DNA from: a virus
Length of the DNA stretch: 64,000 bases
IMG/VR virus record: IMGVR_UViG_3300013126_000029
Span: 1 to 64,000 of that record
Reading direction: 5' to 3' (one strand)
A program made the position numbers and the translations under genes. How positions within the stretch are numbered: position 1 is the stretch's first letter; each line of letters starts with the position of its first letter. Below, in pieces: positions 19,298-57,988 of this stretch. Under the pieces are notes generated by a model. That model did no database searches. It saw only the letters and a program-made list of their open reading frames with translations, and was not told the DNA's origin.

Positions 19298-20335
19298 TCA
19301 ACGGGTTGCGGCGGCGAGGTAGTCGCGCGCGCGCGTCTCGGGCCAACCGCAACAGGTCGTCAGGTGCGCCCTGGCCGCGGCGGTGGAATGAAACTTGCGG
19401 GTGCCCGCGATCCAGTGATCGCAGTCGGTCACGTCGGCGACGTCGAGCACCTGGCCCGGCCGTCGGCCCGGCTTGGCCTTGGCGCCCTCCAGATCCTCGG
19501 GCACGGCGGGGGCCACGGCGGCGGCGGTCATGGCCTTCTGCCCCTCGGGCAGGCCCCGGACGTGGTCGGCAAAGCAGCTCTCGCCCACGCCGGCCGTCTC
19601 CGGGATGCCGTCGGCCAGCGCCTTGTAGAACTCGCCGAAGGGGGTCGTCTTGACCGCGGTCCCGCTGTGCACGCCCTGGAGCGCCAGCGCGAGGTGATTC
19701 AGGAAAATCTGGACCGGGACGATCTTGCGCCCGCCCACGATCTGCGGGCGGCCCTTCACGATGGGCCCACCGGCCGAGCAGTGGACCATGTCCGGGGCGT
19801 AGCGCATCCACCCGGCCGCGGTGTCGGCGTGCTCGTTGACGCCCTCGGGCCAGAGATAGCCCTCGGCGTAGCTCGTGTCGTCCCCGCTCACCCGGATCTC
19901 GGTGAGTTTGCCGATGACGTACTCCTCCGGGCTGCGTCCGGCCTTGGCCATCGTCTCGGGGAATCGTTGGGGGCGAGACCAGTGGTTGATGTCGATCCAC
20001 CCGCCCCAGCGGCGCACGCTGTCGTCGGCGTACTGCCGGAACGGCGCGGCGGACACCGACTCGCCTTCGAGGTCCGGCGAGGGATCGCTGAACCGGGCCC
20101 ACAACCAGCGCACCTTGTCGGGGTGCGGGACGATGATCCCGTTGCGCGTCCAGACGTCGGCGCCCTCGCGGCGCTCTTTCTTCAGGTCCGGGCGGTGCAT
20201 CGGAAGCTCGCCCGTCGCGGCCTTGAACGCCTCGAACCCGTCGAACACGGCCAAACGGCGCGTGTGCAGCTCCATGTCCACGTCGCCGTGGTGCGGGCTA
20301 AATTCGACGTGACTCTGGTGTGGGATCGCGTGCAT
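19298..20335 (-). CDS. Prohead maturation protease
   Basis: This 345-residue protein has a segment typical of S78/gp21-type prohead serine proteases. 'AEGYLWPEGVNEHAD' contains a candidate catalytic His at 169, 'MVHCSAGGPIV' contains a candidate Ser at 187, and then come 'KIVPVQIFLNHLALAL' strands as in the family ('S.gG.v..i..v.....l.lt'). It lies immediately before scaffold and capsid. Near the C-terminus it carries two E-G-x-K-A motifs (264-268, EGQKA; 283-287, EGAKA), which fit self-processing. It would cleave capsid, scaffold and internal proteins in the prohead. The ribosome site GAGGA lies 8-9 bases before the ATG. Confidence 0.75.
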   Translation of the reverse strand: MHAIPHQSHVEFSPHHGDVDMELHTRRLAVFDGFEAFKAATGELPMHRPDLKKERREGADVWTRNGIIVPHPDKVRWLWARFSDPSPDLEGESVSAAPFRQYADDSVRRWGGWIDINHWSRPQRFPETMAKAGRSPEEYVIGKLTEIRVSGDDTSYAEGYLWPEGVNEHADTAAGWMRYAPDMVHCSAGGPIVKGRPQIVGGRKIVPVQIFLNHLALALQGVHSGTAVKTTPFGEFYKALADGIPETAGVGESCFADHVRGLPEGQKAMTAAAVAPAVPEDLEGAKAKPGRRPGQVLDVADVTDCDHWIAGTRKFHSTAAARAHLTTCCGWPETRARDYLAAATR

Positions 20336-29182: not shown

Positions 29183-32100
29183 TCAATCCGCGGCCTGCGC
29201 TCCCGGACCGAAACCGACGGCCACCCGGAAGCCTTTGGCGGCTTCGCGGTAGTGGGCGGGGTTCTCGGCCAGGTGATCCATGGCGATCTCCTGGGCGATC
29301 CCGCGGTCGTCGGTGTGCTCGGTCTCCTCCTCGGTGCCCTCGGCAAGGTCGTCCGGGTCGAAGTCCTCGGGCTCCATCTCGTCGGCGGGGCCCCCGTGCA
29401 GGCGGTCCTTGTGCGCCGCCTTGCCGGTCTCGTCGGGCGGGAGGAGCGGATCGGTGCCGGGGTGCGGGTTGCCGTGTTCGTCCACCTTGAGCTTGCTCTG
29501 CCAGTGCTCCGGGATTCGGCCGGCCGGAAAGAAGCGCCCGGTCAGGATCGGGTGCTTCATCGCGCCTTGCAGGAACTTCGCCACGGTGTCGCGGCGCTTC
29601 ACCGGGTCCTGGTGCCAGGCGGCGTCCGCCGCGGCGGCCTCGGCCTCCTTGCGCTGGTGCTCGGCCGCTCGCTGAACCCGCTCGGCTTCGGCCTGGCGGG
29701 CGCGTTCCTGGGCCTGCTGTTGCGCCTGGCTCTCGGCTTCGGCGCGAGCCTTTTCGATGCCTGCCCGGTGGGCCTTGGTCTCCGCGCTGGGCTCGGCGTT
29801 GGCCTGGGCGGCGGTGTGCGGCATGAAACCGCCCTCGTCGTGCTGGTCGCGGATGAAGTGCAGGGTGTAGCCGTCGGCGTCGTTCTCGCTGCGCAGGACG
29901 CCGTGCTCGTGGCCGGTGTCGTCGCCCCAGGTGGCCACCGGGCGCCACGCTTGCTTGGCTGGGTGCCAGTATTCGAGATCTTCCGGCGGGATGGCCTGCT
30001 TGGTGTAGCGGCTGCCCTCGACGTCCTCGTTGCCGACCGGGTCGACGACGGTGCGGCGTTTCGTCGCGCGGAGCATGACCGGGACGCGCTTCGTCAACGG
30101 CCCGTCGCCGTGCTGGTCTTCGAGCTGGTCGCCAACCTTGCCGTGCCACTCTTTCGCGGCCTGGAAATGGTGGGAGAGAAAGACCTTGCCCTGGCTGTGG
30201 TTGGCGTAGGCCCCGTGACCGTAGAGCCCTTCTCCGCTGCGAGGCTGCAAGCCCTTGCTGGCGATCTGCGGCATCGAAGCGTGGCTGGTGGTGTGAAACA
30301 GGTGCCCGGCCGGCTGGTCGTCGCGCGTCCAGCGGTGCGAGGTCGGGTCGAGGTGCAGGCCGGGGGCGTTGGCGATGGGCCCGGCCTTGGCGCCCTCGAT
30401 GAGATCCCACCGGGCCGGGCCGGCGGCGGCGCCGGCCTCCCAACGGATCTTGTCGGGCTCGGCGTACCCCAGTCGATTGCCCGACCGGGCTCCGCCCCCG
30501 CCGGCTGCTTTGCCTTCGACCCGCGCCACTGGGCGCAGGCCCTTCTCGCGCAGGGCTCGATAGGTCGTGCCGTCCTCGGTGCTCAAGCTGTAGGTCACGA
30601 ACAGGGCCGGGGCCTCGGCGTCGCCTCGTTTCGAGCGGTCGAGGAGGTCGATCATGCGCGCCGCGAGCTTCGACGACGCGCCCTTGGTGGTCCCGTCCGA
30701 CGCGATCCGGGTCAACTCCAGGATGTTGCGCGGGTCCACCCGCCCGTTGCCCCAGCGCCCGGTCGGCGTGCCGGCGGTGGCGACGGCCACCAGGCGCCCG
30801 CCCCGCATGCACCCGACGGCGTAGATGAGCCCGCGCGGGTTCATCTCGGGCATCTGGCTGTGGTGCTCGGCGATGAACGCTCGGGCGGTGTCCAGCGGCA
30901 CGTTCACCAGGCGGAGCTTGCCGGCGGGCGCGATGGCGTCGGCCAGGATCTCGCGCACGATGATCGCGGGGATGAGCCCGCCGCGATCTGCGGACTCGGC
31001 CACAAGCGCAACGGCATCGGCTGCATCTTGCGGGCGCCACTCGGGCATGCCGATCAAGCCCGGAAGCTCGTCCGCCCGGATGGTCATGGGATCGTCCTCG
31101 AAGCTCTCCTCGGGCGCCCACTCGCGGGCGTGGCCGGCGTCGTGCAGGGCGCCCTCGATGAGGTGGACCTCCCCACCGTCGAAGATCCGTCCGACGTGCT
31201 CGACGATGTTCGCCGCTCGTCGTTCGGCTTCGGCCCGCTCGGGCGTGATTTCGGCGTGGCCGCGCTCGCCAGGGGCGGGCGCTCCGGCGTGGCCCATCGC
31301 GGCGTGCAGCGGCTTTGTTCTGACGTGCCGGTGCTCCGTCCGGCCCCGGCGGTCGGTGCGCGTTTCGAGGTGCAGGCGGCCACCGTGGTCGAGATCGGTG
31401 AGGAACGACAACTGCATCGCCTTGGCGCCCTCTCCGAACGCGATGCGGATCGCGCGCCGCTTGCGGACCGTGGTCGAGCCCGCGCCGGTGATGAAGCGGT
31501 GCCAGGCTCGGTCGAGGGCGACCTCGGCCCACGGCATCTCGTAGTTCTTCGGCGAGTCCTCTCCGCGGGTGTGCTGTTGCAACCACCCGTCCGGGTCGGC
31601 CACAAACGCGGCGGTGGCGTCCTTGTCCAGGTCCATCTCCGCGGCGATGCGGCGGCGCTCGGCGGCCGACGTCCACCCGCCCGGAAAGCCGATCTCGTCG
31701 GTGTAGTCGGCGAGGTCGGGATCGGTGGCGGCGAACGCCGATTCGGCGACGTCCTCGCGCACCTTGTCCTGGGCGGCGGTGAGCTTCCGCGGCGGTCCTT
31801 TCTCGGGACGGCCCACGGCGGCGGTGATGGCGACGCTGTCCAGGGTCACGCGGGCACCGGGGCTTGTTTCGGCGACGATGCGCTCGATGTCGGGGAAGCG
31901 CGTCGAGCGCGGGCCCACCCCGAGAAGATGGAGCGCCAGCGGGCGGCGGGGTCGCAGGAACGCGGCCAGATCGGCGTCGCTGGTGGCGTCTTTCTTCATG
32001 GGGATCGCGGGCGTCCAGTCGGTGCCCAGAATGGCATCGACCCGCGCCGCGAACGCAGCCATCGACACGGCGCCTTTCTGGATCGGCACCAGGATGTGCG

Positions 32101-34678
32101 CGCCCTTGGCGCGGATGGCGCGCACCCGGTCGGCGTAGCGCGTGAGCCGGCGCAGGGTCTCCTCCTGGTCTGCGACCTTGTCCGGTGCGACGGCGTAGAG
32201 CTGGCCTCCCAGGGCGTCGGCCATGCGGTCGTACAGGTCGAGGCGGCGTGTCCATTCGGCGTGGGTGATGGGATCTTTGTCCACCGGCCCGTCCGGCGTG
32301 AACGCGATCTCTCCGAACGCCCCCGAGTCGAGAAAGAAGCGCACCAGGCGGCCGTCGGGAGTCGTCCGCCCGCGCAGGGCGGCGGCGGCCGTCTCGGCCT
32401 CGCGGTTCATCTCGCTCGCCGTCGCTCCGGGGTTGATCCCGATGTCGGCGAAACCGGCGATCTCTCCGGCGTGGTTCGACCCGCTGGCAAAGTATCCTCC
32501 CAGGTCGATCTTGAACGTCTCGGCCTCGTTGAACAGGGCGAGTTGCGCCGTCGCTGCCGGCCCGGCCGGCGTGGTCGTGACCCATCGGCGCTCGGTGCGC
32601 CCGCGCTTGTCCGTCCGCGTCTCGGCGTGGAGGCGGCCTCCGTGGGTCGGCTCGAAGAGACGCATCTGGTCGGCGGCCTTCCCGGCCTCCGGTGGCGAGT
32701 CGGCGGCGAGCGCGTCGGCCAGCTCGGTCAGCGCCAGATCGGCCCGGAACTTGTGCCCGACGCGACGTTCGAGGGCGACATACTCGCGGAACAACGCCGG
32801 GTTGGCCTGGGCGGCGATCTTCAGGTCGTCGCGGGTGGCGAAGACACAGAAGACGCAGGACAACCGGCGCATGCCGAGGTCGTAGGCCCCGTGATAGGGC
32901 GTGCCGGCGTCGCGGATGCGCCGCCAGACGTCGCCCTCGGTCCAGTGGTGGATGGGCAACCACTCGTCCACCTGCCGCTTGCCGTTGCTCGCCCCGTCGT
33001 CGCGCTCGAAGACGGGCATCTTGGCGCGGTTGCTGCTCTCGTCGGCTCGCAGGCCCATGCAGTTGAGAATGCGCACCGGCGCGCCCTTGCGGCCGATCTC
33101 GTCGGTCAGGCGCGTCATGAGGGTGCGGATGGGGCCGCGCTTGTGGTCGGAGGTGCAGTAGCGCGACGCGCTCGACGGCCAGGCGATCTCCTTGCCGAAG
33201 TCCACCGGATCGGCCTCGGCCTTGCCGTTCTTCAGCTTGCGTTCGGCGGCCTGCTTGAGCTTCCGGGCGCGTTCGTCGGGGGCCTGCGCTCCGTCCGCCT
33301 GCGCCGGCCCGATGAGCCCGGCCAGCGTCTCGGCGCTCGCCCCCGCGAGATCGCCCCAGGTCCGCACGCCGGACTTGGCGAGGGTCGCGACGTCGTGGCT
33401 GCGCTGCTGGAGGTCCACGGCCCGCTGGTCGATCTGCTCGATGAGGTCGCCCTTGGTCTTCTGTACGACCTCGAAGCGCAGGCCGTAGTGCCGGGCCTGC
33501 GCCTCGGCCAGCTCGCGGGTGCCCTCCCATTCCACGCGCCCCAGATCGGCGTGCACGACGACGACGCGGTCGAGCACGCCCTGGGCGCGGGCCTGGGCGA
33601 CCACGTAGTCGAGCATTGCCTGGCTGTCCTTGCCGGCGGAACTGTTCACCAGGATCGTGTCGTAGTCGCGCAACGACGGCTCGGGATGAGCCGGGGCCGG
33701 GCTCGGGTCGTGGCCCAGTCCGTCAAGGCGGTTCTGGGCGCGCAGGCCCGGCGCCGTCGGCGCTGCGCCTCGCGCGCGGGGCGCCCGCTCGCCGATCTGC
33801 ACCAGGGCCTCGGGCGGCGGCTTGATGCTTGGCGCAGTCGAGAAATTCGGGGCCGTTTTTGGGTCGATCTTGGCCTGCGGCGCGGTTCCGGTGCTCGAAC
33901 TTTCGGCGGTAATCCACCGGGCCTCGCTGCGCCCGGTCGCGTCGGTCCTGGTCTCCTTGTGGAGCCGGCCACCGTGGCTCGGATCGCCCATGAGGTCGAA
34001 CATGCTCATGGTGTTCGTGTCGCGGCGGTCGATGGCTTTCCCACCCTCTTGCGTGTCGGCCAGCTCGGCGATCTGCCGGCGCACATACTCCAGGCGCCGC
34101 CAGGCGTCGTCCAGGGACGAGTCGCGATCCACCGGCGGCGGCTCGGCGCTCTGGGCCTCGTGCAGGTTGAGGGGGCGGCCCCGCTGCTTGGCGTCGGCGA
34201 GGAGCGCCCCCAGGCGGGCCACCGGGATGCCCGTCACCTCGCCCTGGACGCCGCGCACGTCGTAGGAGGCCCGAAAAGTGCGCAGGGCCTCGCGGCGGGT
34301 GGCGAACCCCACCATGACCTTGTCCTCGTCGTAGCGGCCGGTCTTCGGGTCTTTGGCCCGGATGACCCACGCGGTCGGAGCGTCGCGCTCGGGCCCCACG
34401 AACACGTCCACGGCGTCGCCGTCCACGCCCAGGGTGCCCCGGAACTCGCCATAGTGCGCGGGCATCAGGACGGCCCACGGGCTGCCGTCCTGGCCTCTTC
34501 CCTGGCGCACGGTGCCCTCGGGCGTCTCGACGTCAACCGTGGGCAGGCCGGGCACCTGGACGGTGCCGTGGTGGTGGTATTCCTGCGGCCGGCGGGACTC
34601 GGCGGGCGGGTCGAGCGGCAGGGCCTTGTGCCCCTCGCGGATGGCCTGGAGCTGAAGCAAGAGGCCGGCGGCGGTCAT
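29183..34678 (-). CDS. Giant polyvalent protein C: five enzyme domains in one polyprotein
   Basis: This 1831-residue protein starts at the ATG at 34678 (ATGA overlap). After a Leu-rich leader ending EGHKA (15-19) come: an inorganic-pyrophosphatase-like domain (about 40-170, 'VDVFVGP', 'YDEDKVMVGF'); a PAPS-reductase/ATP-pyrophosphatase domain (about 335-630, SSAGKDS at 343-349 and CVFC near 604); a TGT/DpdA-like TIM barrel (about 710-1070, 'FFLDSGAF', 'LLGVGP'); an XF1762/Mom-like acyltransferase (about 1215-1400, 'EHHSQMPEMNPRG', 'ELTRI', 'TYSLSTEDGT'); and an ART-like domain (about 1455-1600, 'LFHTTSHASM'). E-G-x-K-A or E-A-G-K-A sites at 211, 664, 1083 and 1428 separate the domains. Likely it is cut into single enzymes; this is inference. 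Confidence 0.72.
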   Translation of the reverse strand: MTAAGLLLQLQAIREGHKALPLDPPAESRRPQEYHHHGTVQVPGLPTVDVETPEGTVRQGRGQDGSPWAVLMPAHYGEFRGTLGVDGDAVDVFVGPERDAPTAWVIRAKDPKTGRYDEDKVMVGFATRREALRTFRASYDVRGVQGEVTGIPVARLGALLADAKQRGRPLNLHEAQSAEPPPVDRDSSLDDAWRRLEYVRRQIAELADTQEGGKAIDRRDTNTMSMFDLMGDPSHGGRLHKETRTDATGRSEARWITAESSSTGTAPQAKIDPKTAPNFSTAPSIKPPPEALVQIGERAPRARGAAPTAPGLRAQNRLDGLGHDPSPAPAHPEPSLRDYDTILVNSSAGKDSQAMLDYVVAQARAQGVLDRVVVVHADLGRVEWEGTRELAEAQARHYGLRFEVVQKTKGDLIEQIDQRAVDLQQRSHDVATLAKSGVRTWGDLAGASAETLAGLIGPAQADGAQAPDERARKLKQAAERKLKNGKAEADPVDFGKEIAWPSSASRYCTSDHKRGPIRTLMTRLTDEIGRKGAPVRILNCMGLRADESSNRAKMPVFERDDGASNGKRQVDEWLPIHHWTEGDVWRRIRDAGTPYHGAYDLGMRRLSCVFCVFATRDDLKIAAQANPALFREYVALERRVGHKFRADLALTELADALAADSPPEAGKAADQMRLFEPTHGGRLHAETRTDKRGRTERRWVTTTPAGPAATAQLALFNEAETFKIDLGGYFASGSNHAGEIAGFADIGINPGATASEMNREAETAAAALRGRTTPDGRLVRFFLDSGAFGEIAFTPDGPVDKDPITHAEWTRRLDLYDRMADALGGQLYAVAPDKVADQEETLRRLTRYADRVRAIRAKGAHILVPIQKGAVSMAAFAARVDAILGTDWTPAIPMKKDATSDADLAAFLRPRRPLALHLLGVGPRSTRFPDIERIVAETSPGARVTLDSVAITAAVGRPEKGPPRKLTAAQDKVREDVAESAFAATDPDLADYTDEIGFPGGWTSAAERRRIAAEMDLDKDATAAFVADPDGWLQQHTRGEDSPKNYEMPWAEVALDRAWHRFITGAGSTTVRKRRAIRIAFGEGAKAMQLSFLTDLDHGGRLHLETRTDRRGRTEHRHVRTKPLHAAMGHAGAPAPGERGHAEITPERAEAERRAANIVEHVGRIFDGGEVHLIEGALHDAGHAREWAPEESFEDDPMTIRADELPGLIGMPEWRPQDAADAVALVAESADRGGLIPAIIVREILADAIAPAGKLRLVNVPLDTARAFIAEHHSQMPEMNPRGLIYAVGCMRGGRLVAVATAGTPTGRWGNGRVDPRNILELTRIASDGTTKGASSKLAARMIDLLDRSKRGDAEAPALFVTYSLSTEDGTTYRALREKGLRPVARVEGKAAGGGGARSGNRLGYAEPDKIRWEAGAAAGPARWDLIEGAKAGPIANAPGLHLDPTSHRWTRDDQPAGHLFHTTSHASMPQIASKGLQPRSGEGLYGHGAYANHSQGKVFLSHHFQAAKEWHGKVGDQLEDQHGDGPLTKRVPVMLRATKRRTVVDPVGNEDVEGSRYTKQAIPPEDLEYWHPAKQAWRPVATWGDDTGHEHGVLRSENDADGYTLHFIRDQHDEGGFMPHTAAQANAEPSAETKAHRAGIEKARAEAESQAQQQAQERARQAEAERVQRAAEHQRKEAEAAAADAAWHQDPVKRRDTVAKFLQGAMKHPILTGRFFPAGRIPEHWQSKLKVDEHGNPHPGTDPLLPPDETGKAAHKDRLHGGPADEMEPEDFDPDDLAEGTEEETEHTDDRGIAQEIAMDHLAENPAHYREAAKGFRVAVGFGPGAQAAD
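30323..30397 (-). repeat. GPIAN-PGL module in protein C
   Basis: EGAKAGPIANAPGL followed by SHRWTR. It lies between the acyltransferase-like and the ART-like domains of protein C. Confidence 0.6.
31321..31398 (-). repeat. SHGG/RTD linker module, third copy in protein C
   Basis: DLDHGGRLHLETRTD followed by RGRTEHRHV. It lies just after E-G-A-K-A (1083-1087), between the TGT-like and the acyltransferase domains, and is preceded by QLSFL. Confidence 0.6.
32578..32656 (-). repeat. SHGG/RTD linker module, second copy in protein C
   Basis: EPTHGGRLHAETRTD followed by RGRTERRWV. It lies just after E-A-G-K-A (664-668) and QMRLF, between the PAPS-reductase-like and TGT-like domains. Confidence 0.6.
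33911..33990 (-). repeat. SHGG/RTD linker module, first copy in protein C
   Basis: GDPSHGGRLHKETRTD followed by TGRSEARWI. It lies after E-G-G-K-A (211-215) and MSMFDLM, between the pyrophosphatase-like and PAPS-reductase-like domains. Confidence 0.6.
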
Positions 34679-34998
34679 TCTGCGTCCTGGTCTTCGAGGA
34701 TGTAGTCCTCGCCCTCCGGGGTCTGACAGAACGGCGAGCCGGGGCAGTCCTGGGCTCGCTCGGCCTGGAACTCGAACGCCTCGGCGACGGCCTCCAGGAA
34801 CGGCCGGTCGTTGTACCAGGTCGCGGCCAGCGGATCGGCGTAGGCTCCCAGGTGGGGGATATTGGCGCGGGTGAACCCCAGGCGCTTCAACCACCGCTTC
34901 ACGATCCACCAGTAGGGGCCGAAGTTCCGGTAGTAGGCCGGCTCGGTCTGGAGCGTCTGCACGAGGAGGGTCGCGGTCTCCTTGGTCGGGGTGATCAT
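34675..34998 (-). CDS. Hypothetical 107-residue protein between polyvalent genes
   Basis: The ATG at 34998 overlaps the upstream TGA, and the TGA at 34677-34675 overlaps the next ATG (ATGA both times), so this small gene is coupled on both sides. The first half is rich in aromatic residues ('YYRNFGPYWWIVKRWLKRLG') and may form helices that pack on a partner. The C-terminus is acidic (QTPEGEDYILEDQDAE). It does not carry the SHGG module or the E-G-x-K-A motif. It could be a chaperone or targeting helper for the giant proteins on either side, but no family is recognised. Confidence 0.5.
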   Translation of the reverse strand: MITPTKETATLLVQTLQTEPAYYRNFGPYWWIVKRWLKRLGFTRANIPHLGAYADPLAATWYNDRPFLEAVAEAFEFQAERAQDCPGSPFCQTPEGEDYILEDQDAE

Positions 34999-37900
34999 TT
35001 GCGGTCCTCCGAATTGATCCGCCGGATGGCCTCCCTGACGAGACCGTGGTCCTCGCCCTGGCCTCCGACCACGCGGTTGTGGGCGTTCTTCCACTCGTAG
35101 CTCGGCTGGTACTCGTAGCGCCCGGTGTTGCTCATGGAGCCGTGCCGGCCATGGGTGTAGACGGGTTTCTTGCCCTCCGCGCGCAGGTGCGCCACCAGGC
35201 CCCGCACGATGGCCTCTCGGTCCTCGCCCCACGGCAACAGGCCGACGGCGTCCTTGGCCTCCGGGGTGCCGGCGCGAACCGCGGCCACCGCGTCCCCTCG
35301 GCGGACGAAGACGTGCCCGTGCTTGGCGTCCGCGGCGGATAGGTTGGCGATCTGGCGGGCCTCGGGCTCGAACTCGCGGCGGATGTCCTTGGGCCAGTCG
35401 CGCATCTCGGCGAGGGCGCCGCCGGCCAGGCTGGGGTACTTCTTGGCGCTGTCGAGCTTCGCCTTGATTTCGGGTCGATAGGCGTCGGCCTCCGTCTCCG
35501 GTCCGGTGTGGGTGACGTATTCGGGCAAAAGCGCGGCCGAGATCGTGGGATTGTCGCTCCAGGAACGGCGGCGCGGCCCAAACGGGCGCACCGTGACGCT
35601 GCCCCTGACCGGGTCCACGTCGGTGATGACATGGCCGGAGTCGGTGACCTTGTCGCCCTTCGGGTGGATGACGTCGCCCACCTTCAGGATGGCGCCGGTG
35701 GTCGGGACCGCCACGCACGGGACGTTCGTGTCGAGCGCCTGGCGCAAAGGCTTGGGAAGCTCGGTCACCCGCTTCAGACGCTCGGTGTCGAGGCGGATGT
35801 TCTCGGCCAGCCGGCGAGCGGCGTGGCTCGTCTTGTCGGGCATCTTGGCCAGCGCGGAGCGGCGCTTGATGACACCCTGCCAGTCGCGCATGGCTTTGGC
35901 GCGGGCGGCGTCCTGGAGCGCGGCGACGCGGGCTCCCCGGTTGGCCTCGAAGGTCTTGCGGGCCTCCTCCGGGTCGTCGGCGAGCATGATCTGAAGCTCC
36001 TCCGGGCTGAACTTCTCACCCTCCTCCGTGTTCTCGGCGTAGTCGGACCCGCTGTAGAGGTTGGCGACCCACCCCTGCTTGCCGCTCAAGATGGCGTGGC
36101 GGTAGCTGTCGAAGCTGCGCTTCGAAAAGTAGGTGTGGATCTTGACCCGGTCGTACTTGTTGCCCTGGCGCACGGCCCGGCCCTCGCGCTGGTGGTACTT
36201 GCCGGGGCTCCACGGCAGGTCGAGGTGATGCAGGTCGGAGGTGTTCTGCTGAAGATTGACGCCCTCGCCCATCGTGCCGGTGTTGCCGATGACGATCCGC
36301 GTCGTGCCCTTGTTGAACCGCTCGCTGATCGCGTACCGCTTGTCGGCGTCGGCCGCGGTCTTCGCGTTCAGGATCTCGATCTCCTTCTCGGGGATGCCGG
36401 CCTCCACCAGGAGCTTTTTCAGGGCGGTGTGGCTGTCGTTGCGGTCGATGAATACGACCTGCCCGCCACGGCCCGCCTTGAGGTTCTTCACGATGGTTCC
36501 CACGGCCTCGTGGTACTTCGGGCTGTGCCGCCACTCGCCCGCGTGCTCCGGGTGCTCCTCGGCGAGCAAAGAAAGGTCCGTGCCGGCGGCGTTGAGCTGG
36601 TGCAGAAGCCAGAACGTCGCCGCGGCGGCGACCCTGGGATCTTTGTCCAGCTTGCGGCGCTCGAACTCGTCGCGGATGTCCCGGAACGCCTGGTGCTGCT
36701 GGGGGGTCATGTCCACCAGGTGCTCCTCGCGCTCGACCTGGGGGAGTTTGAGGTTGACCTCCTTGGCGGTGCGGCGCCGCAGTCCGCGCTCCATGACCTC
36801 GCGCAGCTCGTTCATGTTCTTGAACCCGACCGCGCACTGGGCCATCTCGGCCTGCTGGTTCGTGTTGATGATCGTCCGCTCCTCGATGTCCACGTAGCGG
36901 TCGATGAATTCCTCCAGGTTGCGCACGCCCACCTGGCGCCAGACCTGGGGGGTGGCCTGGAGCATGAGGTGGTAGACGTCCATCGGGCTGTTCTTGGCCG
37001 GCGTGGCGGTGAGGAGGAACACCCCGTTGCCGTTGACGCCCAGACCGTCGGCGCCGTTCTGGCTCATGCGCTGCTGGTGCGCCTCGTCGGTCTCGTCGGG
37101 CTTGCGCCGCTCGCGCACCAGGGCGGCCTTGAGCTGGAGGTCGTGGGATCGCTTCACGTTGTCAGAGCTGGACCCCATCATCTTGACCTCGCCCCCGCGG
37201 GACCGCGGGCTGCCGAGGTTGGCGAAGTTGTGGGCCTCGTCCACGAACATCGCGTCGATACCCAGATCCTCCCAGTGGATGATGCTCTGCTTGACCCCGA
37301 AGGCGAGCTTCGCCCGCTCGGCCTGGTAGGAGGCGAGGGCTTTGGCGAGCTTCTTCTCGCGGCTGTCGAGCGAGACGGCGACGGTCGATTCGCGGGCGCT
37401 CAACTTCGACGCCCGGCGGGCCCAGAAATCGTCTCCCTCGAAGCGGGTGACGTTCTCGTCGCGAACCGGGATGCGGGCCTGCGCCTCGTAGGTAAACAGG
37501 ACCATGTCGTAGTCGTTGGCGGCCAGATCGGCCAACTTTCTCGTCAAAGCCTCGTCGCTGTCCGCCTCGGCGACGTACTCGGGCACCTGCGGATCGTGCC
37601 AGGTCTTCTTGGGCTTCTCCTTGCTGGTCGCCCCGACCACCAGAACCTTCGCGCCGGGGTGCAGCTTTTCGATCTCCTTCGTCCAGTTGATGATGACCGA
37701 CTTGGGGCAGGTGACCGCCACCTTGCGGGCCTGGCCGCTGATCCGCATCTGGCGCGCGGTGGCGATGGTGTTAAACGTCTTGCCCAGACCCACGTCGAAG
37801 GCCACGATGCCGCCCCGGCGGTCGGTGTTCCACCGGATCTGCTCGTAGTGGTAGGGGTGCAACTCGAAGGTGAGCCCGTCGATCTTCATCGGCGTGCTGT

Positions 37901-40900
37901 TCAGGCGCCGCGGCACCTGCCCGGTGAAGCGGCGGTTGTAGACCTCCTCGACGTCGTTGCGCAGGTCGGAGGAGGCCAACCAGGATCGGAACTTCTCGTC
38001 GTCGCTCTCGGCTTGCTCGCGGGCCCGCTCGCCATGCAGGGGGAGCCGGTTCATGTAGCGCAGGACGTTGCGGAACGGGGCCGAATCGGCCGCGCCGGAG
38101 TAAGTGAAGCCGTCGCCGCTATGCTTGCCCCGCTGCCCATTCTTGTTGAGAAAAGAGACGGTGTAGACGCCGCCGGCCTCGGTGACCTTGAAGTCGCTGA
38201 AGTCGCTTTGCCACTCGGACAAGGTGCCTGGTGTGTTAAGCCACGCCTCGATGACGTGGGGCGGAATCCACCCGCTGCGCACCGACACCTCGACCTGGTC
38301 GAGCGGGCGCCAGCGTTCGTCGATGTGCCGTTGCACCAGGGCGAGCCGGGCCTCGGCGCGCTGGCGGGTGGCCTCGTCCTCGCTCGCGGCCATCTCGTGC
38401 TCGTGGTCGCGCACGGCGAAGAGGTCTCCGCTGGCGTAGTCGTCGGCGTGCAGGACTGCGGGCGCGTCTCCCTCGACGCCGAACGCCCCGCGCGCGTCCA
38501 CGTACTCGCCGCTCTGCACCAGGCCGGCGACGACGAGATCGTCGTCTGCGGCGGCCGGGAAAGCCTCGCGGAGCTGCGCCACGGTGATCGGCGCGCCGGG
38601 GTTGTGGGTGGCGAGGTGGCTCGCGGCCTCGGCCACGCTGGTTACTCGGACGGCGACGTCGCCGCGCGCGGCGGGGGGGATGACCGGGTCGGTGGTCAGG
38701 ACGTCGGCCATCGACTTGTCGGCGTTCACGGCGCTCACCAGGTGCGCGATGTTCGCGTCCTGGTTGGCGAGGGCCTGGATTTCGGGGTGCTTGCTCGGCA
38801 CGCCGTAGTTCTCGACCCAAGCGTTCAGATCCTTCTGGAGCTTGCGCCGGATGCCGCGGGCTCGCAGGTAGTCGCCGCGCTCCATGGCGGAGCGCAGGTC
38901 GCCGTAGCGCAGGGCCAACTCGCCCGCGCTCTTGAGGGCCGCGTCCCCGCTGTGCATCAGTTCGCGGGCGTCGTCGATGCTGTCGAGCCGGCGCCAGCGC
39001 AGCTCTCCGCTCGGGTCCGGGGTGAGGATGTACGTCTTGCCGGCGATCACGGTCTGGCTGCCGCGCACCGACGGCGGCTCGGCCACGGCGGACTTGGCCG
39101 TTTCGAGCGAGTCGCGCACCCGCTGATCGGCGTGTGCGGCCATCTCCTCGGCCGTGACGGCCTGGCCGGCCTGGCTCTGGGCCCACGATGCGGTGCCACG
39201 CGCCCGGATGAGGGGGGCGCAGGCGTCGGCGTTGCCCTCGACGAGATCCCCACCGCGCCAGTCCTTGCCGACCGTCCCCAGGACGCGGTCGGGCTTGTCG
39301 TCGAACCAGCGCCCGAAGATGAACGCCTCGTCGTGCGTGCCGACCGCTCGCGCGACCTGCTCGCCCCCGCGGGCGAGCGCGGTCGCGACGACCTCGGGCC
39401 GCTTGCGCAGGATGATGACGTCGGAAACGACCGTGGTGTCGGCGTGCTTGAACGCCTCGACCGGCAGGCGGAAGGCGTCCACCAACTCGGCGCGCTCGCC
39501 GAGTCGGTGCCGGAAGTCCTGCATGCCGTCGTTGGACATGACCCCGCGGTGCACGATCATCGCCACCAATCCGCCCTCCTTGACCTGGTCGAGGGCGGTG
39601 TCCACGAAGTAGGCGTCGGCGGAGGTGTACTCGGGCTTGTGGATGCGGGCCCCGTCGCCGGTGCGAGTGCAGAACGGGGCATTGGTGATGACCGCGTCGA
39701 AGCGGTCGCCCACGCCGCGCTCGCGGGCGACCGCGAAGTGCTCGAAGCCTTGGGCGTGGATGGTGTGTCGGGCCCCATGCAGGCTCGACGCAACGAGGGC
39801 CACCTCGGGGTCGATCTCGACGCCGGTCATGGTGACGCCCTCGGGGGCGGTCTGCATAAAGACGCCTGATCCGCAAGCGGGCTCCAGCACCTTCGCGTTC
39901 GTGGGGAGCCCATGGTGGGCGAGCAGATCCCACATGGACGCCGCGATGTCCGGGCGGGTGAAGTACTGGTTGAGGCTGTCGCCGATCCCGCCCCTGCCGG
40001 AGTAGAGCGCGACCTGGTCCATTTCCTTCTGGGTCAACTCGCGGCCCTGCCCCACGGCCTTCTGGATGAGCGCGACGGCGGCGCTGTTGGCCTCCTTGCG
40101 CTGCTTGGGCGTGAGGTCGCGGCCGAAACTGTGCGTGCTGGCCTTGGGCCCGCTCGACGCCTGCGCGGGCTCCACCTTCGGCGTCTTCGTTCCGGCAATA
40201 ATCCGGTCTGCCTCGGCCTCGGCGGCCTGGCTCATGGCTGCCTGCATCTCTTCGGTCGGCTCTCCGGTGGGCCCGGTCTCGTCGCTCCAAAGGTGGTCGA
40301 GAAGTTTGGTGACAAGCGCGGCCCGGCGTGCAGGCGTCCAGTCGCCCTTGGCTTCCATGTCGGTGAGGTGAAGGCGTTGGTGGAAGTTCTCCAAAGACTC
40401 CTGAAGCGAGCGCGACGGGGCGGCCTCCGCCGGTGGCGGTCCATCGACGATCTCGGCGGCGCCGGCCTGGGCGGCGCGGGCCAACGTCTCGTCGGACACG
40501 GGCGGGCCCTGGGGCGCCCCCTCGGGCCGCCAGCCGGCCTCGCCCTTCTGCCAGACCTGCGTCCCGTCGTCGTGAGCGAGCGTGACCTGGGCACCGGCGG
40601 GGGCGCTCTCCAGGTACTCGACGGTCCGGGCGGGCTCGGCGACCGGATCGGGGCGCTGCGGCGGCTCGGCCTCGCGGGTCGGGAGCTTGGCCGGCTCGGC
40701 CTCGCGCACCGTCTGGGCGAGCTTGCTCGCCACCTCGTTCAGGAAGGCGTCCCGGCCGAGCTTGTCGAGCCCGTCGAAGTAGAGCATGCCCCACCCCTTC
40801 GCGTGCTCGTCGGCGTGGCCCAGCGCGTCGGTGCGCGCGGTGGCCTCGTCGGCTGCCAGATCCTCGATCTGCTTCTGGATGCCGAGCACCAGGCCGTCGC

Positions 40901-42899
40901 GGTCGTTGACCGTCGCCATCTGTCGGAACCCCGGATCGGCGGCGAGCTTGGCCGCGAGGTCACCCTCGACGTCCTGCCCGACGTAGTAGGTCCGGGTCAC
41001 CCCGTCCTTGCCGGTGATCTTGCGGGCCTGGAGGCGCCCGCCGTCGGTCGGGTCGCGGGTGATGTCCTGGCTGCTGGGGGCGACCGGATCGGCATGAGGG
41101 CCGGCGGGGGCCGGCTGCCCGACCGACGCGGTCAACCGCTCGGCCTCGGCGCTGGCCTGTTCGGCGGCGGGCCGGCGGGCCGGGTCGCTCATGGCGGCGA
41201 GCCACGCATCCGCCGCCTTCTTGTGAGCGGCCATGGCGGCCATGCGTTCGGCACCGTGGGCGTTGCCCTCCTGTGAGGAGATCGTCGCCTGGTCCTTTGC
41301 GGACGTCGTGTGCGCCATGAACCGGGCGTGGGCGGCGCGGGCCTGCTCCTTCGCGTCTTCGGACGACGGCTGCGGCTGCGGCGCCGCCCTGGCCTGCATG
41401 GCTGCCGCGTGCTCCTTGTCCAGCGCGTCGAGCTTCTTTCTCGCCTCCTCGACGTGTCCCTGCGCTCCGATCCGGTAGCCGGCGGAGTGCGCGGTTCGCG
41501 CTTCCCCAGACCAGAACGCGATCTGTCGCTTGGTCTCTTTGATGTCGTCCTGAATGGCGTCGGTGGAGCGGGTGGGCGGCGGGTGGGCGGCGGGAGACTC
41601 CTCGGTCGCTTCGCTCTCGTTCGTCTCGTCGCCTTCATCGTCCGACTGGCCGGTGAAGGCGCGCGCGGCGTCCTCGCTCTTGAAGATGAAACCGGGGATC
41701 GCCCCGTTGCCCTTGAAGCTGCTGTAGCGTCCCCCCAGGCGCTTCGCCTTGGTGTTGATCTCCTGGTAGGTCTCGCTGCTGACCCGGTCCTGGAGCTGCA
41801 CGGTCCACAACGCCTCGCCGGTCTTGGTGTGGCGGTTGGGGATGATCTTCGCTCCGCTCATGGCCTCGTCGGCCCCGCCCTCCTTGGGCAGGCGGGCGGT
41901 GCGCGTGTCCTCGGACCCGTTCCTGTTCGTGCTCGCTCGCTCGCTGGGGGGGCCGCTCTTGCGCCAGGCGCTCCAACGATAGCCGCGCGGCGTCTTGTCC
42001 TGGCCGCGAGAGAACCACTGGCCGTCCTCTCGGCGCGACCACTGGAGCTGCGTCTGGTAGTCCATCGTGTAGCCGTGGAAGATCGTCCCGGCGGGGTATT
42101 CCTCGGGTGTCTTCCGGCGCGGCGTGTCTTCCGGCGCGGCGGCTTCGGGCGTTGCAGTCGTTGTCGGCTCGGCCGGCGGCGCGGGCGCGGGCATTTCATC
42201 GTTCGCTGCCGGGCTCGGTGCGGCCGGCGTTTCAGTCGTCGTCGGATCGGTCCACGACGGCTTGCGCGCGCTCGGCGGCGTGGGGTCTTCGCCGGGCTGC
42301 ACCGGGCGCAGATCGCCCGGTTCGACCTCGGTGCGCATGCCGGCCAGGACGACAAACGGCCGGCCGTCGTCCTCTCCGGCGAACGTGACCGGGCTCCAAC
42401 CGCTGCCACTGGAGTCCTTGAGCATGACCCGGTCGCCCCGCTGGAAGGTCGGTCGCGCCGGGGCCTGCTGGTTGGCGTGGTGGGCCTGGGCGGCGCTGAG
42501 GAGCTGGTCGCGCCGCTCGACGTCCTCCGGGGTTGCCTCTGGACGTTTCGCCTGCTGGTGCGCCTCCACCAGGGCGCTCGCGACCTGGCCGGGGCTCGCC
42601 TGGCTGGCCCATCCGAACAGATCGGGCCCCAGGTCCGGCTTGGCCTTGGCCTTGCGGGGCGCCTTGGCGGGCTGGGTCGGCAGGACGTGTACGGTCTGCT
42701 GGTGCCCGGCTTTGTTCACGATCTGGCGCTCGATGAGGCGCCCGCCGTGACTGGCGTCTCCAGGCGCAAACAGGTCGAGTTGGCCGGATGGCGTCGGGGT
42801 GGGTCGAGGCGTTGGCTTCGCAGGTGGGGCCGACCCACTTCCGAAAAGCGCCAGTTGTTCAGCCTTGAACCCGTCGTCGAGGATGTGGATCAGAAACAT
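34995..42899 (-). CDS. Giant polyvalent protein B: DarB-like methyltransferase-helicase
   Basis: This 2634-residue protein starts at the ATG at 42899, with GAGG 7 bases upstream. The leader MFLIHILDDGFKA ends in a D-G-F-K-A motif and is followed by QLALF (15-19) and QLDLF (40-44), then the SHGG module (about 47-75). A second module occurs near 613-640. An N6-adenine methyltransferase lies at about 930-1180: 'VLEPACGSGVF' (motif I) and NAPF near 1072, a variant of NPPF. An SNF2-type helicase follows: 'VGLGKT' (about 1700), DEAH (near 1884), 'LTATPAKN', and 'REGRAVRQG' (near 2245). This order matches P1 DarB, which is injected and blocks type I restriction. The long middle is helical. Confidence 0.75.
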   Translation of the reverse strand: MFLIHILDDGFKAEQLALFGSGSAPPAKPTPRPTPTPSGQLDLFAPGDASHGGRLIERQIVNKAGHQQTVHVLPTQPAKAPRKAKAKPDLGPDLFGWASQASPGQVASALVEAHQQAKRPEATPEDVERRDQLLSAAQAHHANQQAPARPTFQRGDRVMLKDSSGSGWSPVTFAGEDDGRPFVVLAGMRTEVEPGDLRPVQPGEDPTPPSARKPSWTDPTTTETPAAPSPAANDEMPAPAPPAEPTTTATPEAAAPEDTPRRKTPEEYPAGTIFHGYTMDYQTQLQWSRREDGQWFSRGQDKTPRGYRWSAWRKSGPPSERASTNRNGSEDTRTARLPKEGGADEAMSGAKIIPNRHTKTGEALWTVQLQDRVSSETYQEINTKAKRLGGRYSSFKGNGAIPGFIFKSEDAARAFTGQSDDEGDETNESEATEESPAAHPPPTRSTDAIQDDIKETKRQIAFWSGEARTAHSAGYRIGAQGHVEEARKKLDALDKEHAAAMQARAAPQPQPSSEDAKEQARAAHARFMAHTTSAKDQATISSQEGNAHGAERMAAMAAHKKAADAWLAAMSDPARRPAAEQASAEAERLTASVGQPAPAGPHADPVAPSSQDITRDPTDGGRLQARKITGKDGVTRTYYVGQDVEGDLAAKLAADPGFRQMATVNDRDGLVLGIQKQIEDLAADEATARTDALGHADEHAKGWGMLYFDGLDKLGRDAFLNEVASKLAQTVREAEPAKLPTREAEPPQRPDPVAEPARTVEYLESAPAGAQVTLAHDDGTQVWQKGEAGWRPEGAPQGPPVSDETLARAAQAGAAEIVDGPPPAEAAPSRSLQESLENFHQRLHLTDMEAKGDWTPARRAALVTKLLDHLWSDETGPTGEPTEEMQAAMSQAAEAEADRIIAGTKTPKVEPAQASSGPKASTHSFGRDLTPKQRKEANSAAVALIQKAVGQGRELTQKEMDQVALYSGRGGIGDSLNQYFTRPDIAASMWDLLAHHGLPTNAKVLEPACGSGVFMQTAPEGVTMTGVEIDPEVALVASSLHGARHTIHAQGFEHFAVARERGVGDRFDAVITNAPFCTRTGDGARIHKPEYTSADAYFVDTALDQVKEGGLVAMIVHRGVMSNDGMQDFRHRLGERAELVDAFRLPVEAFKHADTTVVSDVIILRKRPEVVATALARGGEQVARAVGTHDEAFIFGRWFDDKPDRVLGTVGKDWRGGDLVEGNADACAPLIRARGTASWAQSQAGQAVTAEEMAAHADQRVRDSLETAKSAVAEPPSVRGSQTVIAGKTYILTPDPSGELRWRRLDSIDDARELMHSGDAALKSAGELALRYGDLRSAMERGDYLRARGIRRKLQKDLNAWVENYGVPSKHPEIQALANQDANIAHLVSAVNADKSMADVLTTDPVIPPAARGDVAVRVTSVAEAASHLATHNPGAPITVAQLREAFPAAADDDLVVAGLVQSGEYVDARGAFGVEGDAPAVLHADDYASGDLFAVRDHEHEMAASEDEATRQRAEARLALVQRHIDERWRPLDQVEVSVRSGWIPPHVIEAWLNTPGTLSEWQSDFSDFKVTEAGGVYTVSFLNKNGQRGKHSGDGFTYSGAADSAPFRNVLRYMNRLPLHGERAREQAESDDEKFRSWLASSDLRNDVEEVYNRRFTGQVPRRLNSTPMKIDGLTFELHPYHYEQIRWNTDRRGGIVAFDVGLGKTFNTIATARQMRISGQARKVAVTCPKSVIINWTKEIEKLHPGAKVLVVGATSKEKPKKTWHDPQVPEYVAEADSDEALTRKLADLAANDYDMVLFTYEAQARIPVRDENVTRFEGDDFWARRASKLSARESTVAVSLDSREKKLAKALASYQAERAKLAFGVKQSIIHWEDLGIDAMFVDEAHNFANLGSPRSRGGEVKMMGSSSDNVKRSHDLQLKAALVRERRKPDETDEAHQQRMSQNGADGLGVNGNGVFLLTATPAKNSPMDVYHLMLQATPQVWRQVGVRNLEEFIDRYVDIEERTIINTNQQAEMAQCAVGFKNMNELREVMERGLRRRTAKEVNLKLPQVEREEHLVDMTPQQHQAFRDIRDEFERRKLDKDPRVAAAATFWLLHQLNAAGTDLSLLAEEHPEHAGEWRHSPKYHEAVGTIVKNLKAGRGGQVVFIDRNDSHTALKKLLVEAGIPEKEIEILNAKTAADADKRYAISERFNKGTTRIVIGNTGTMGEGVNLQQNTSDLHHLDLPWSPGKYHQREGRAVRQGNKYDRVKIHTYFSKRSFDSYRHAILSGKQGWVANLYSGSDYAENTEEGEKFSPEELQIMLADDPEEARKTFEANRGARVAALQDAARAKAMRDWQGVIKRRSALAKMPDKTSHAARRLAENIRLDTERLKRVTELPKPLRQALDTNVPCVAVPTTGAILKVGDVIHPKGDKVTDSGHVITDVDPVRGSVTVRPFGPRRRSWSDNPTISAALLPEYVTHTGPETEADAYRPEIKAKLDSAKKYPSLAGGALAEMRDWPKDIRREFEPEARQIANLSAADAKHGHVFVRRGDAVAAVRAGTPEAKDAVGLLPWGEDREAIVRGLVAHLRAEGKKPVYTHGRHGSMSNTGRYEYQPSYEWKNAHNRVVGGQGEDHGLVREAIRRINSEDRK
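40978..41061 (-). repeat. SHGG/RTD-related linker module inside protein B
   Basis: A diverged copy, RDPTDGGRLQARKITG followed by VTRTYYVG. It lies between the N-terminal helical part and the methyltransferase region of protein B and has no E-G-x-K-A site before it. Confidence 0.45.
42678..42765 (-). repeat. SHGG/RTD linker module near the N-terminus of protein B
   Basis: GDASHGGRLIERQIVN followed by QQTVHVLP, preceded by QLDLF. It is a diverged member of the same repeat family. Confidence 0.5.
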
Positions 42900-44153: not shown

Positions 44154-44273
44154 TCACAGGGCGCGGGCCCGGTTGAATGCTTCCTCCGCTCGGCGGCGGG
44201 TCTCGGCGGGGTCTTCTCCACCCTCGCCCGTGCGGCGCACCGAATAGCCTCCCCCGGCGGCCGACGTGTTCAT
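44154..44273 (-). CDS. 39-residue hypothetical protein
   Basis: The ATG at 44273 overlaps the TGA of the 1225-residue gene as ATGA, and the stop at 44156-44154 lies inside the GAGGAG ribosome site region of the next gene. The peptide MNTSAAGGGYSVRRTGEGGE continues into an Arg/Glu-rich helix. The two-sided coupling is the only strong evidence. It has no known family, so it may be a small leader that keeps ribosomes moving between the giant genes. Confidence 0.4.
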   Translation of the reverse strand: MNTSAAGGGYSVRRTGEGGEDPAETRRRAEEAFNRARAL

Positions 44274-47200
44274 CTGCTCCACCTCACCTCTTCGCGGGCG
44301 GCGCCGCCCGCGTCGCCTCGCCCTTGCGCATACCCGGCGGCCCAGTGGTCGTGCTCGGGCGTTCCCTGCTTGTGGGGGTTCTTCTGCGGGGCCGTTCCCT
44401 GCCCGCTGGCGCTGCGGCGCAAGGTCTCGTCGCCGTGGCCGGCGCTGTACCCGGACTCATTGGCGGCCTTGTGCGCCCGGCTCATGGCGTCCTCGCGCTC
44501 GTATTTGGCCACCCGCTCCGACGTGTCCTTGGCCTCTTGCGCCTTGCTGGCTGCGTTGCTCGCGTTCGACCGAAACGCCTCCGCGGCGGCCGTGTGCGCC
44601 TTCTCCGCGTTGGCGTGCCCGCCCGTGACGGACAAAGACGCGCCCCCTTCACGGGCGGCCTGGAGCTTCTGGCGGTGCTCCGCAGCGCGCGCCTCGTGCT
44701 TGTCGGCGGCCCCCTGGCGGGCGCGATGGTCCTGAGCCTTGTTGCGGATCTGCCCGGCGAGCCTGTCCGGGCGCGGCTTGACGCTCGCGTTCTGCAACGC
44801 GGCCATCATGCGTTGGCTGTCCGGGTGTTCTCGGTCGAAGGTCGTGCCGAACGCGGCGCTTCCGTGTGCGCCCTCGGCCTTGTCGTGCAGGTGTTGGGCG
44901 AGCTTCAGCGCGTCGTCGGGGGCGTAGCCTTGGGCGATGGAACGGCCGCTCGGGATGTGGGTGACGGTGGCGAGCCCTCCATGCTCGGGGGCCTCGTCGT
45001 GCACGCCGTAGACCCCGACGCGGTGGCCCTGCACCGACTTGCGGCCGGCCCCGGTGTCGATGGCGTAGCTGGCCGGCTCGGGTTTCGTCTCCGCCTTGGG
45101 CGCGGGCGGCCACTGGCCACCCGTGCGCTGGGACGTCAGGCGGCTCGCGTGCTCCGACTGCCGGTTGGCGGCGTTGGCGTGGATCTCGTAGTGATCCCCG
45201 CCGTGAACGTCGTTGGGGTCGAGGGTCGAGGCGGCGTGCTGGTAGGCGGCGCGGGCGGCCTCGTCCTGGGCGCGGGCGGCATCCTGATGCGCGGCCCGCT
45301 CGCCCCCGCCGGTGGCTTCATCGGCGGCCTGGCGATGGAGCTTGGCCAGGTGCTCGTGCACGGGCGCCTTGGCTCGGGCGGCCTGGCGGGCCGGCACCTG
45401 AGCCTCTTCCTTCTGGGCCTTCTCGCTGAGGGCGTGGGCGTCCTTGATCCGCTGCGGGCTGGCGTCCCCCCGGCGCATCTCGGTGGCCACCTGCTGCCAG
45501 GCATAGGCGGCCTGCTTGTGCGCGTTGCCGGCTCCATGCCCACCGTGACTTGACTGGAACTGTTCGCCCTTGCGGTCGTGCTCGTGGGCCTTGATCTGCG
45601 CCTGTTGCGGGGTGATGTCGGGCTCGGCGGCGGCGGCGGCGGCGGCGGGCGCGGGCTCGGGCGCGGGCGTGTGAATGTGGCCTCCCTCGGAATCCACGAG
45701 ACGCATGACGGACTGGAAAGCGTGTTTGGAGGGTGGATCGTCCACGTCTGTCCACTCACCCGGAGCGTGGGAGCTTGGCTTCTGGCGGTGCCAGTCGGTT
45801 TTGCCTGGACCGACCTTCCGGTATGCGACATTCCCGTCTTTGGTGGTGTAGAGGGCGCCCTGTTTTGCTTGTGCGATGCCTTCGGGTGTCGCTCTGTCGC
45901 GCAACATGGCGGGCGCGGGCGGCTCCTTGGTCTCCTGGGCCACCCGGTACGACGGATCGGCGGCGCGGCGGTCGGCCTCGCGACCCTGGATCCGGTCGGC
46001 GACGGCCTTGACGTCTCGGCTGCGCGCATGGGCCTCGGTGGTAAGGCGGTCTGCTGCTGCTTCAGCGCCCGGGGTAGCGCCGACCCTGCTGTGCATGCGC
46101 GCCGCCTTGGTGTGTGCCAGCGCGGCCTCGCGGTGCTTGTCTCCTACTGGGTCTCCATCGGCCCGGCCCTCAGCCTGCTTCGCGTGAAACGCTGCGTGGG
46201 AAGTGTGTGCCTGCGCCTTGGCCTCGTGAGAACCGGGCCGGGTCTGCTGCACAATGCGAGCGGCCTGCCCCTCGCTGATCCCGCGATCCGGTCCTAAGCC
46301 TGCCGCGTCACGCTGACCGTTGGCTCGCAGGCTGGCGTCTGCGGCGTGGTGGCTGGCCACGGCGGCCTTGTTGCGGTCGATGGTCGCCTGGTCGCGCTCG
46401 GAGGTGTTGGGGCTCTCGCGCTTGCTGCTGCTCGCAAACGCGATCCCGTGCGCCGACGCTGCGGCGTGATGGGCGTCCGCTGCCGTTTCGTGCGCGCGCT
46501 CCGCCAGGTGGTCGCCGCGCCCGCGGGCGGTGTTGGCCAATTCCCGGTGGGCCTCGATGGCGCGGGCGTGGGACTGCTGCATCTCGGCGTGCTTCTGCCA
46601 GGGCTCGGCCGGCTTGGGCGCCTTCTTGAGCTTGGCGATCCCATCCTCGGCTTTCTTGGTCTCGGTGTCGGCCCTGGTGGTCGCCGTCTTCGCCTCGCTC
46701 TCGCTCCCGTTGCCGGTCGCGGCGGCTTTCGCGGCGTCTGCGGCGGCCCGGTGCGCCCGCTGGGCGGTCATGTGATGCCGGCCCTCGGGGGTGCTCGGCC
46801 CGCCGGCTGCCTGCATCGCGTCTCGGTGGGCGTCGGCGATCCGCGTATGGCGAGCGGCGAGCATGTGGCCCCAGTGGCCGCTCGTGCCCTGCGCGGGTTC
46901 CTGCGCGGTGGGCGGCGGCTTGGGCATGGCGGCCTTGCGCAGTCCAGTGGCGTGTTCTCGGAGCGTGCCGGCGAGCGTGCTCATGGCGCTGCGCGCTGCG
47001 CGCAGGTGTGCGCGGCCCTCCGCGTGCGCCCCTTCGCCCTCTTTCTTGCCGTGCAGTTCGTCGGCGGCGTTGGCCTGTTCGGAGAAGTAGTCGGCCATTC
47101 GGTCGGCCATGCGGGGGTCGTCGGGAGCGCGGAGCTTGCTCTTGGCCCGGTCGTAGTGCGCGAGGATGTGGCCGTGCATCTCGTGCTCGTCCGGCTCGAC

Positions 47201-49203: not shown

Positions 49204-49204
49204 G

Positions 49205-57860: not shown

Positions 57861-57988
57861 GGCTTCTTCTTCTTCGGCTTCATCGCCTCCTGGATCAGCC
57901 GGTCGTTCTCTCGCGCCTCACAGATGAAACACCGCTTCTTCCGGTTCATCTCGGCGAGCGTCTTTTGACAGTCGATGCACTTCTTCAC
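57857..57988 (-). CDS. Small zinc-knuckle protein
   Basis: This 43-residue protein starts at a GTG (57988) that overlaps the stop of the SbcC-like gene as GTGA, with AGGAG 6 bases upstream. It has two CxxC pairs (CIDC at 4-7 and CFIC near 20-23) and a Lys-rich tail. It is a single zinc knuckle and may bind nucleic acid. Confidence 0.5.
   Translation of the reverse strand: MKKCIDCQKTLAEMNRKKRCFICEARENDRLIQEAMKPKKKKP

Follow-up and report, generated by a model that had tools for sequence, protein, structure and literature searches.

Polyvalent proteins are large multi-enzyme proteins that are predicted to travel with DNA and have been likened to polyproteins, their release being proposed to depend on embedded peptidases of the zincin and assemblin-like kinds (Iyer et al. 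2017, PMC5512222). Ideas on how single domains are set free have so far been guesswork around such peptidases. A long protein of a rare, uncultured phage from IMG/VR, here called protein C, raises the question of whether the protease that matures the capsid may also separate several enzymes made as one chain. The window that we analyzed comprises 64,000 bases of a 64,571-base IMG/VR virus record (71% GC), and most of its genes are carried by the minus strand.

Domains and candidate sites of protein C

29183..34678, minus: protein C, proposed polyprotein, 1831 aa
34622..34636, minus: site 1, EGHKA, aa 15-19, end of the leader MTAAGLLLQLQAIREGHKA
34034..34048, minus: site 2, EGGKA, aa 211-215, between InPase and PAPS segment; kept in a relative
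32675..32689, minus: site 3, EAGKA, aa 664-668, between PAPS and TGT-like segments; EASKA in the relative
31418..31432, minus: site 4, EGAKA, aa 1083-1087, between TGT-like and XF1762/Mom segments
30383..30397, minus: site 5, EGAKA, aa 1428-1432, just past the XF1762/Mom core; kept in the relative
29417..29431, minus: possible site 6, ETGKA, aa 1750-1754, a weaker candidate

Re-reading the window returned the open reading frame, strand and coordinates of protein C that had been given in a preliminary description. The segments follow in the order leader, InPase, PAPS reductase-like, TGT-like, XF1762/Mom and a C-terminal segment (possibly ART-like, DUF5661-like). Profile searches confirmed three of the domains named earlier, InPase (Pfam E 4e-31), PAPS reductase (Pfam 7e-17, PHROG 1e-38) and XF1762/Mom (NCBIfam 1.5e-11, at 44.3 bits versus a curated cut-off of 50; PHROG 7e-9), the last with a core ending at ~aa 1413, and the TGT/DpdA call was supported by motifs. 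This TGT-like segment (aa 669-1087) contains LDSGAF, APDKV, LHLLGVG and TLDSVA and has weak pairwise scores with phage 9g DpdA (z 1.6) and Gilgamesh gp114 (z 1.5); it gave no HMM match in the profile search and no homolog in scans of genomes, IMG/VR and cultured phages, and its identity, based on motifs and weak pairwise scores, is tentative. No HMM or tblastn match supported the putative ART segment (aa 1433 on), and an AlphaFold model of residues 632-1831 from a two-row alignment gave no usable fold (pLDDT 35). Like polyvalent proteins, protein C combines several disparate catalytic domains in one chain (the TGT-like one by motif only); no peptidase domain was found in it.

The motif E-[GA]-x-K-A occurs at residues 15, 211, 664, 1083 and 1428, where the sites had been placed before, and a cut after K-A would leave a 19-residue leader and pieces of 196, 453, 419, 345 and 399 aa, the sizes originally calculated. 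Composition shuffles of protein C predict 0.16 matches, compared with the five present. The regular spacing that had been claimed did not hold, as the pieces span 196 to 453 aa; instead, there is one site per domain junction. The four internal sites occupy each of the four gaps between the five domain cores once, which under random placement has P ~0.0008 in a simulation with TGT and ART cores defined by motifs. In the relative, the same surroundings contain EAAKS in place of possible site 6. Because codons differ synonymously from site to site, we do not favor a DNA-level repeat as the origin of the sites. The site neighborhoods lack clear disorder, and disorder propensity was uninformative.

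The motif in the head proteins of the window

16893..18383, minus: major capsid protein (MCP), 28-residue leader ending in QGLKA
18424..19287, minus: scaffold-like protein P0005, motif at 22, 104 and 136
19298..20335, minus: putative capsid maturation protease P0006, 345 aa
21217..29151, minus: large protein B, helicase C-terminal domain, EAAKA at 138 and EGAKA at 153
34995..42899, minus: large protein A, N6-MTase and SNF2 helicase, DarB-like layout
44270..47947, minus: large protein D, leader MSIARAILDKVNLIRTNLAEPEAAKA and second site EGWKA
47944..49245, minus: MuF-like minor head protein P0008 (by gene position), EALKA near the N-terminus
49205..51055, minus: portal protein, EGGKA at residue 592 near the C-terminus

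The MCP matches PHROG 752 (a PDB sequence search gave no match), and its QGLKA, in which Q replaces E, spans aa 24-28 (18300-18314) and is followed by MTAEVG. Staphylococcus phage 812 has a related portal (PDB 8q7d). P0008 had no family match; its counterpart in L045 carries EGLKA. In protein A, the leader MFLIHILDDGFKA contains DGFKA, which aligns with the EGLKA of the relative's leader, MFFIRIEGLKA. Between the catalytic domains of large proteins A and B, no site is conserved.

Altogether, the head gene block from MCP to portal (10,863 residues) contains 17 copies of the motif versus 1.1 in shuffles (Poisson P ~8e-15), compared with 2 versus 0.46 expected in the other listed window proteins and 10 versus 4.2 expected in 64,345 residues of unrelated phage loci. 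Conservation is a stronger test than enrichment of whether the motif is more than chance. Over the related contigs, E is conserved in 86%, K in 96% and A in 82% of cases, and the x position and the residue preceding E in 50% and 37%, respectively; where A is replaced, S or T mostly takes its place. Two matches in an SbcC-like coiled coil read RAWKT and EATHA in a relative and so are not conserved. This SbcC-like protein is encoded with an SbcD-like protein as a nuclease pair at 57985-62623 (minus), outside the head block and past its terminase end.

A putative capsid maturation protease

P0006 lies directly before the scaffold and the MCP, and the resulting order protease-scaffold-MCP is common to Aeromonas phage ST4, Bacillus phage CM1 and Enterococcus phage EF24C. 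Its candidate catalytic residues are His118 (IDINH) and Ser187 (HCSAGG). It carries the motif at 35, 264 and 283, the latter two as EGQKA and EGAKA in the C-terminal part, from which a C-terminal propeptide of 58-77 aa is predicted. About 165 residues align with the ST4 capsid maturation protease (z 4.9, 1/300 shuffles as good), the two proteins having IDI[ND]H (GWIDINHWS versus GNIDIDHYT) and S.GG in common, and hhalign of two small alignments, one for each protease, gave E 8e-4 over 68 columns. Pairwise comparison with the CM1 and EF24C proteases was not significant (z below 1), searches of Pfam, PHROG, NCBIfam and PDB sequences gave nothing significant, and AlphaFold from a two-row alignment gave no usable fold (pLDDT 33.5). 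Because of the gene order and the similarity to the ST4 enzyme, P0006 is probably the capsid maturation protease, an assignment that we hold with good but not final confidence.

Segments gained and lost between site copies

Scans with TerL, MCP, protease and portal found four related contigs only and no cultured or genomic close relative; in this tiny lineage none of the four has a changed motif. In one of them, G001 (IMGVR_UViG_3300042434_002493), the protein C homolog has ~1509 aa and starts with the leader MNPAALLLQLQANREAGKA, which, like MTAAGLLLQLQAIREGHKA in the window, is short and ends in the motif, here EAGKA. There follow a ~340-aa segment that is absent from the window, then EAAKA, and then LPLDPP, the same start of the pyrophosphatase (InPase) segment. 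A whole segment flanked by EAGKA and EAAKA is therefore placed between two site copies. In the relative's protein (L022 9983-14509), this N-terminal segment has a Cys-rich start, DPSCARCGARIKHAYLTNHG. The TGT-like segment is missing from G001 along with site 4, and the change falls inside the repeated hairpin modules located just behind sites 3 and 4. Protein D of the window has a ~130-aa segment between its leader EAAKA and EGWKA that the relative's D lacks, its leader leading directly to EGAKA-IDKKD.

There are two exceptions: a GNAT-like insertion of the relative sits within the PAPS fragment, and on the C-terminal (ART) side the difference starts 8 aa after site 5. Some insertions and deletions thus ignore the sites. 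Neither the ~340-aa segment nor the GNAT-like insertion has a Pfam match. The site arrangement is absent from fourteen InPase-domain loci of other phages (L024-L037) and so is not general to InPase proteins.

The repeated hairpin modules have the following representative in protein C.

33914..33979, minus: junction module HGG hairpin 1, SHGGRLHKETRTDATGRSEARW, aa 234-255 of protein C, after site 2

Similar HGG modules lie at ~aa 678 and ~1097, after sites 3 and 4, where AlphaFold of residues 632-1831 placed low-confidence hairpins (pLDDT 35). As a hairpin-like unit of ~25 residues, HGGxLHxExRTDxxGRxxxRWV is repeated after most sites of proteins A, B, C and D and also occurs at the start of protein B; a second repeated module of these large proteins is GPIANxPGLxxDxxSHRWxR. 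Matches to the HGG module DNA pattern in IMG/VR were confined to this lineage.

Elsewhere, the PAPS segment (aa ~332-645) has stand-alone counterparts, proteins of 352-363 aa with ~46% identity to it, which are encoded by Streptomyces phage Gilgamesh and by plasmids of actinobacteria. A separate TGT-type gene (LDSG[GA]F) is found beside or near the PAPS-like gene in four of the neighborhoods examined, namely those of Gilgamesh and of plasmids of Streptomyces sp. NBC_00470, S. zaomyceticus and M. aubagnense, and is not found in the others. Consecutive pieces of protein C therefore have counterparts in genes that are separate neighbors in these genomes. The PAPS reductase-like and TGT-like gene pair (L063, L065, L067, L069) suggests a little-studied nucleic-acid modification pair.

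A proposed pathway and its alternatives

Taken together, these data make it likely, by sequence comparison and analogy, that protein C is a virion (ejection) polyprotein that is targeted by its leader, cut by the capsid protease into five or six pieces and injected. Every working sequence test favored the polyprotein reading of the preliminary description, although the regular spacing did not hold and the ART name found no support. It is favored because the motif is common to the capsid, scaffold-like, putative protease, portal and MuF-like proteins, because E, K and A are conserved in the relatives, because segments were gained or lost between site copies, and because one of the separated domains is a stand-alone gene elsewhere. 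The motif positions (MCP N-terminus, scaffold, protease C-terminus, leaders) also fit those of known prohead-protease substrates. Since the sites of protein C match that of the capsid protein and protein C has no peptidase domain, the enzyme in question would be a separate capsid protease.

In the first step, the 19-residue hydrophobic leader would act as a capsid targeting sequence that takes the 1831-aa chain into the prohead, and the leaders of proteins A and D would target likewise. In the second, for which comparative sequence argues, P0006 would lose its own C-terminal propeptide at EGQKA/EGAKA and, once activated, cut in trans at E-[GA]-x-K-[AST], either after K-A or between K and A. 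It would take off the 28-residue N-terminus of the capsid protein, trim the scaffold, the portal tail and the MuF-like protein, and divide protein C into five or six pieces (pyrophosphatase-like, PAPS reductase-like, TGT-like, XF1762/Mom-like and C-terminal). In the third, the head would retain the enzyme pieces until they pass into the cell together with the DNA; there, by modifying nucleic acids and through related activities, they would shield the incoming genome or prepare the host. Packaging and injection are proposed by analogy with T4 Alt, the T4 internal proteins and the P1 Dar proteins (PMC5694885, PMC9024508); for protein C itself, its position among the head genes and its leader suggest delivery with the DNA.

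The best surviving alternative is that protein C is an ordinary polyvalent protein that loses nothing but its leader to the protease. The internal E-[GA]-x-K-A copies would then be uncut remnants of module joining, every imported module having arrived with a leader end and a hairpin of its own. In its favor, modules do travel together with a site and a hairpin, proteins A and B are multi-domain and lack conserved internal sites, and P1 DarB is packaged as a 250-kDa protein (PMC9024508). However, unused scars should drift, and the internal copies retain E, K and A in relatives while their neighbors change and the codons at the sites vary synonymously; moreover, if the signal is cut in the capsid protein, any copy exposed in the prohead should be cut as well. 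We regard this alternative as unlikely. Less probable still is that the motif serves as a docking element for the scaffold or capsid interior, recurring in packaged proteins for their recruitment. It would explain why nearly every head-block protein and the leader ends carry it, and leaders are known packaging signals (PMC5694885, PMC9024508), but the MCP N-terminus and the protease C-terminal part, where the motif also occurs, are cleavage positions in other phages (PMC5694885, PMC7411985), and conservation limited to spaced single residues resembles a protease subsite pattern. Unconserved matches such as those in the SbcC-like coiled coil do occur, but chance, in a high-GC proteome rich in alanine and glutamate, is hardly credible as the source of 17 copies versus 1.1 expected in the head block and is contradicted by their conservation in relatives.

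Relation to known systems

With polyvalent proteins, protein C has in common its size, the kinds of domains and the predicted travel with DNA; embedded peptidases were proposed for them, whereas the sites of protein C match the capsid protein's. The prohead proteases of T4 and SPN3US act at the MCP N-terminus, the scaffold, the protease C-terminus and the leaders of ejection proteins (PMC5694885, PMC7411985). As proposed for protein C, T4 Alt and the internal proteins cut by gp21 have a short targeting leader removed by the prohead protease and yield an injected enzyme (PMC5694885, PMC7411985), Alt being trimmed at both ends (PMC5694885). They differ in having one enzyme per precursor and another cleavage motif, whereas protein C has several enzymes separated by sites. 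The SPN3US and phiKZ systems resemble the proposed one in their many head substrates, multiple cuts and C-terminal autocleavage of the protease (PMC5694885, PMC10052503), but the multiple cuts reported there lie within propeptides and the motif ends in E, and the sites of protein C lie between enzymes. The Dar proteins of P1 are antirestriction proteins packaged in the head, DarB with an N-terminal packaging signal and DarA and DdrB reported or believed to be processed (PMC9024508, PMC5512222); unlike protein C, they are encoded by separate genes, and no repeated inter-domain site has been reported. The head modules of ST4 and Herelleviridae share with the window the protease-scaffold-MCP order, a related portal, distant MCP similarity and protease motifs, but the head regions examined encode no such polyproteins and their capsid N-termini differ.

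In open-licence papers we came across no description of a single precursor whose several enzymes are set apart by a capsid protease. It is more likely than not that protein C is a true polyprotein of injected enzymes, diced in the prohead by the capsid protease and built from interchangeable site-hairpin-enzyme cassettes. If so, the phage could exchange the enzymes that it injects and still need only one leader and a single packaging event, a modular loading of several enzymes with one targeting leader. Capsid protein, scaffold and multi-enzyme protein appear to have one cut signal in common, which would be a simple and testable mechanism tying enzyme release to capsid maturation. It may also offer a way to recognize injected proteins in uncultured phages, by searching their other genes for the motif at which the capsid protein itself would be cut.

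Short peptides after the sites

Many sites are followed by short Q-x-x-[LM]-F or S-M-F-D peptides (DQMRLFE, EQLALFG, GQLDLFA, AQLNIFG, MSMFDLM), found at these positions.

~34000-34010, minus: protein C, aa 224
32660-32668, minus: protein C, aa 671
42840-42860, minus: protein A
29125-29139, minus: protein B

The bacterial sliding-clamp binding motif is QL[SD]LF, and these peptides resemble such motifs. Stand-alone Streptomyces homologs start alike, with MQTATLFDL and MQPAALFDL.
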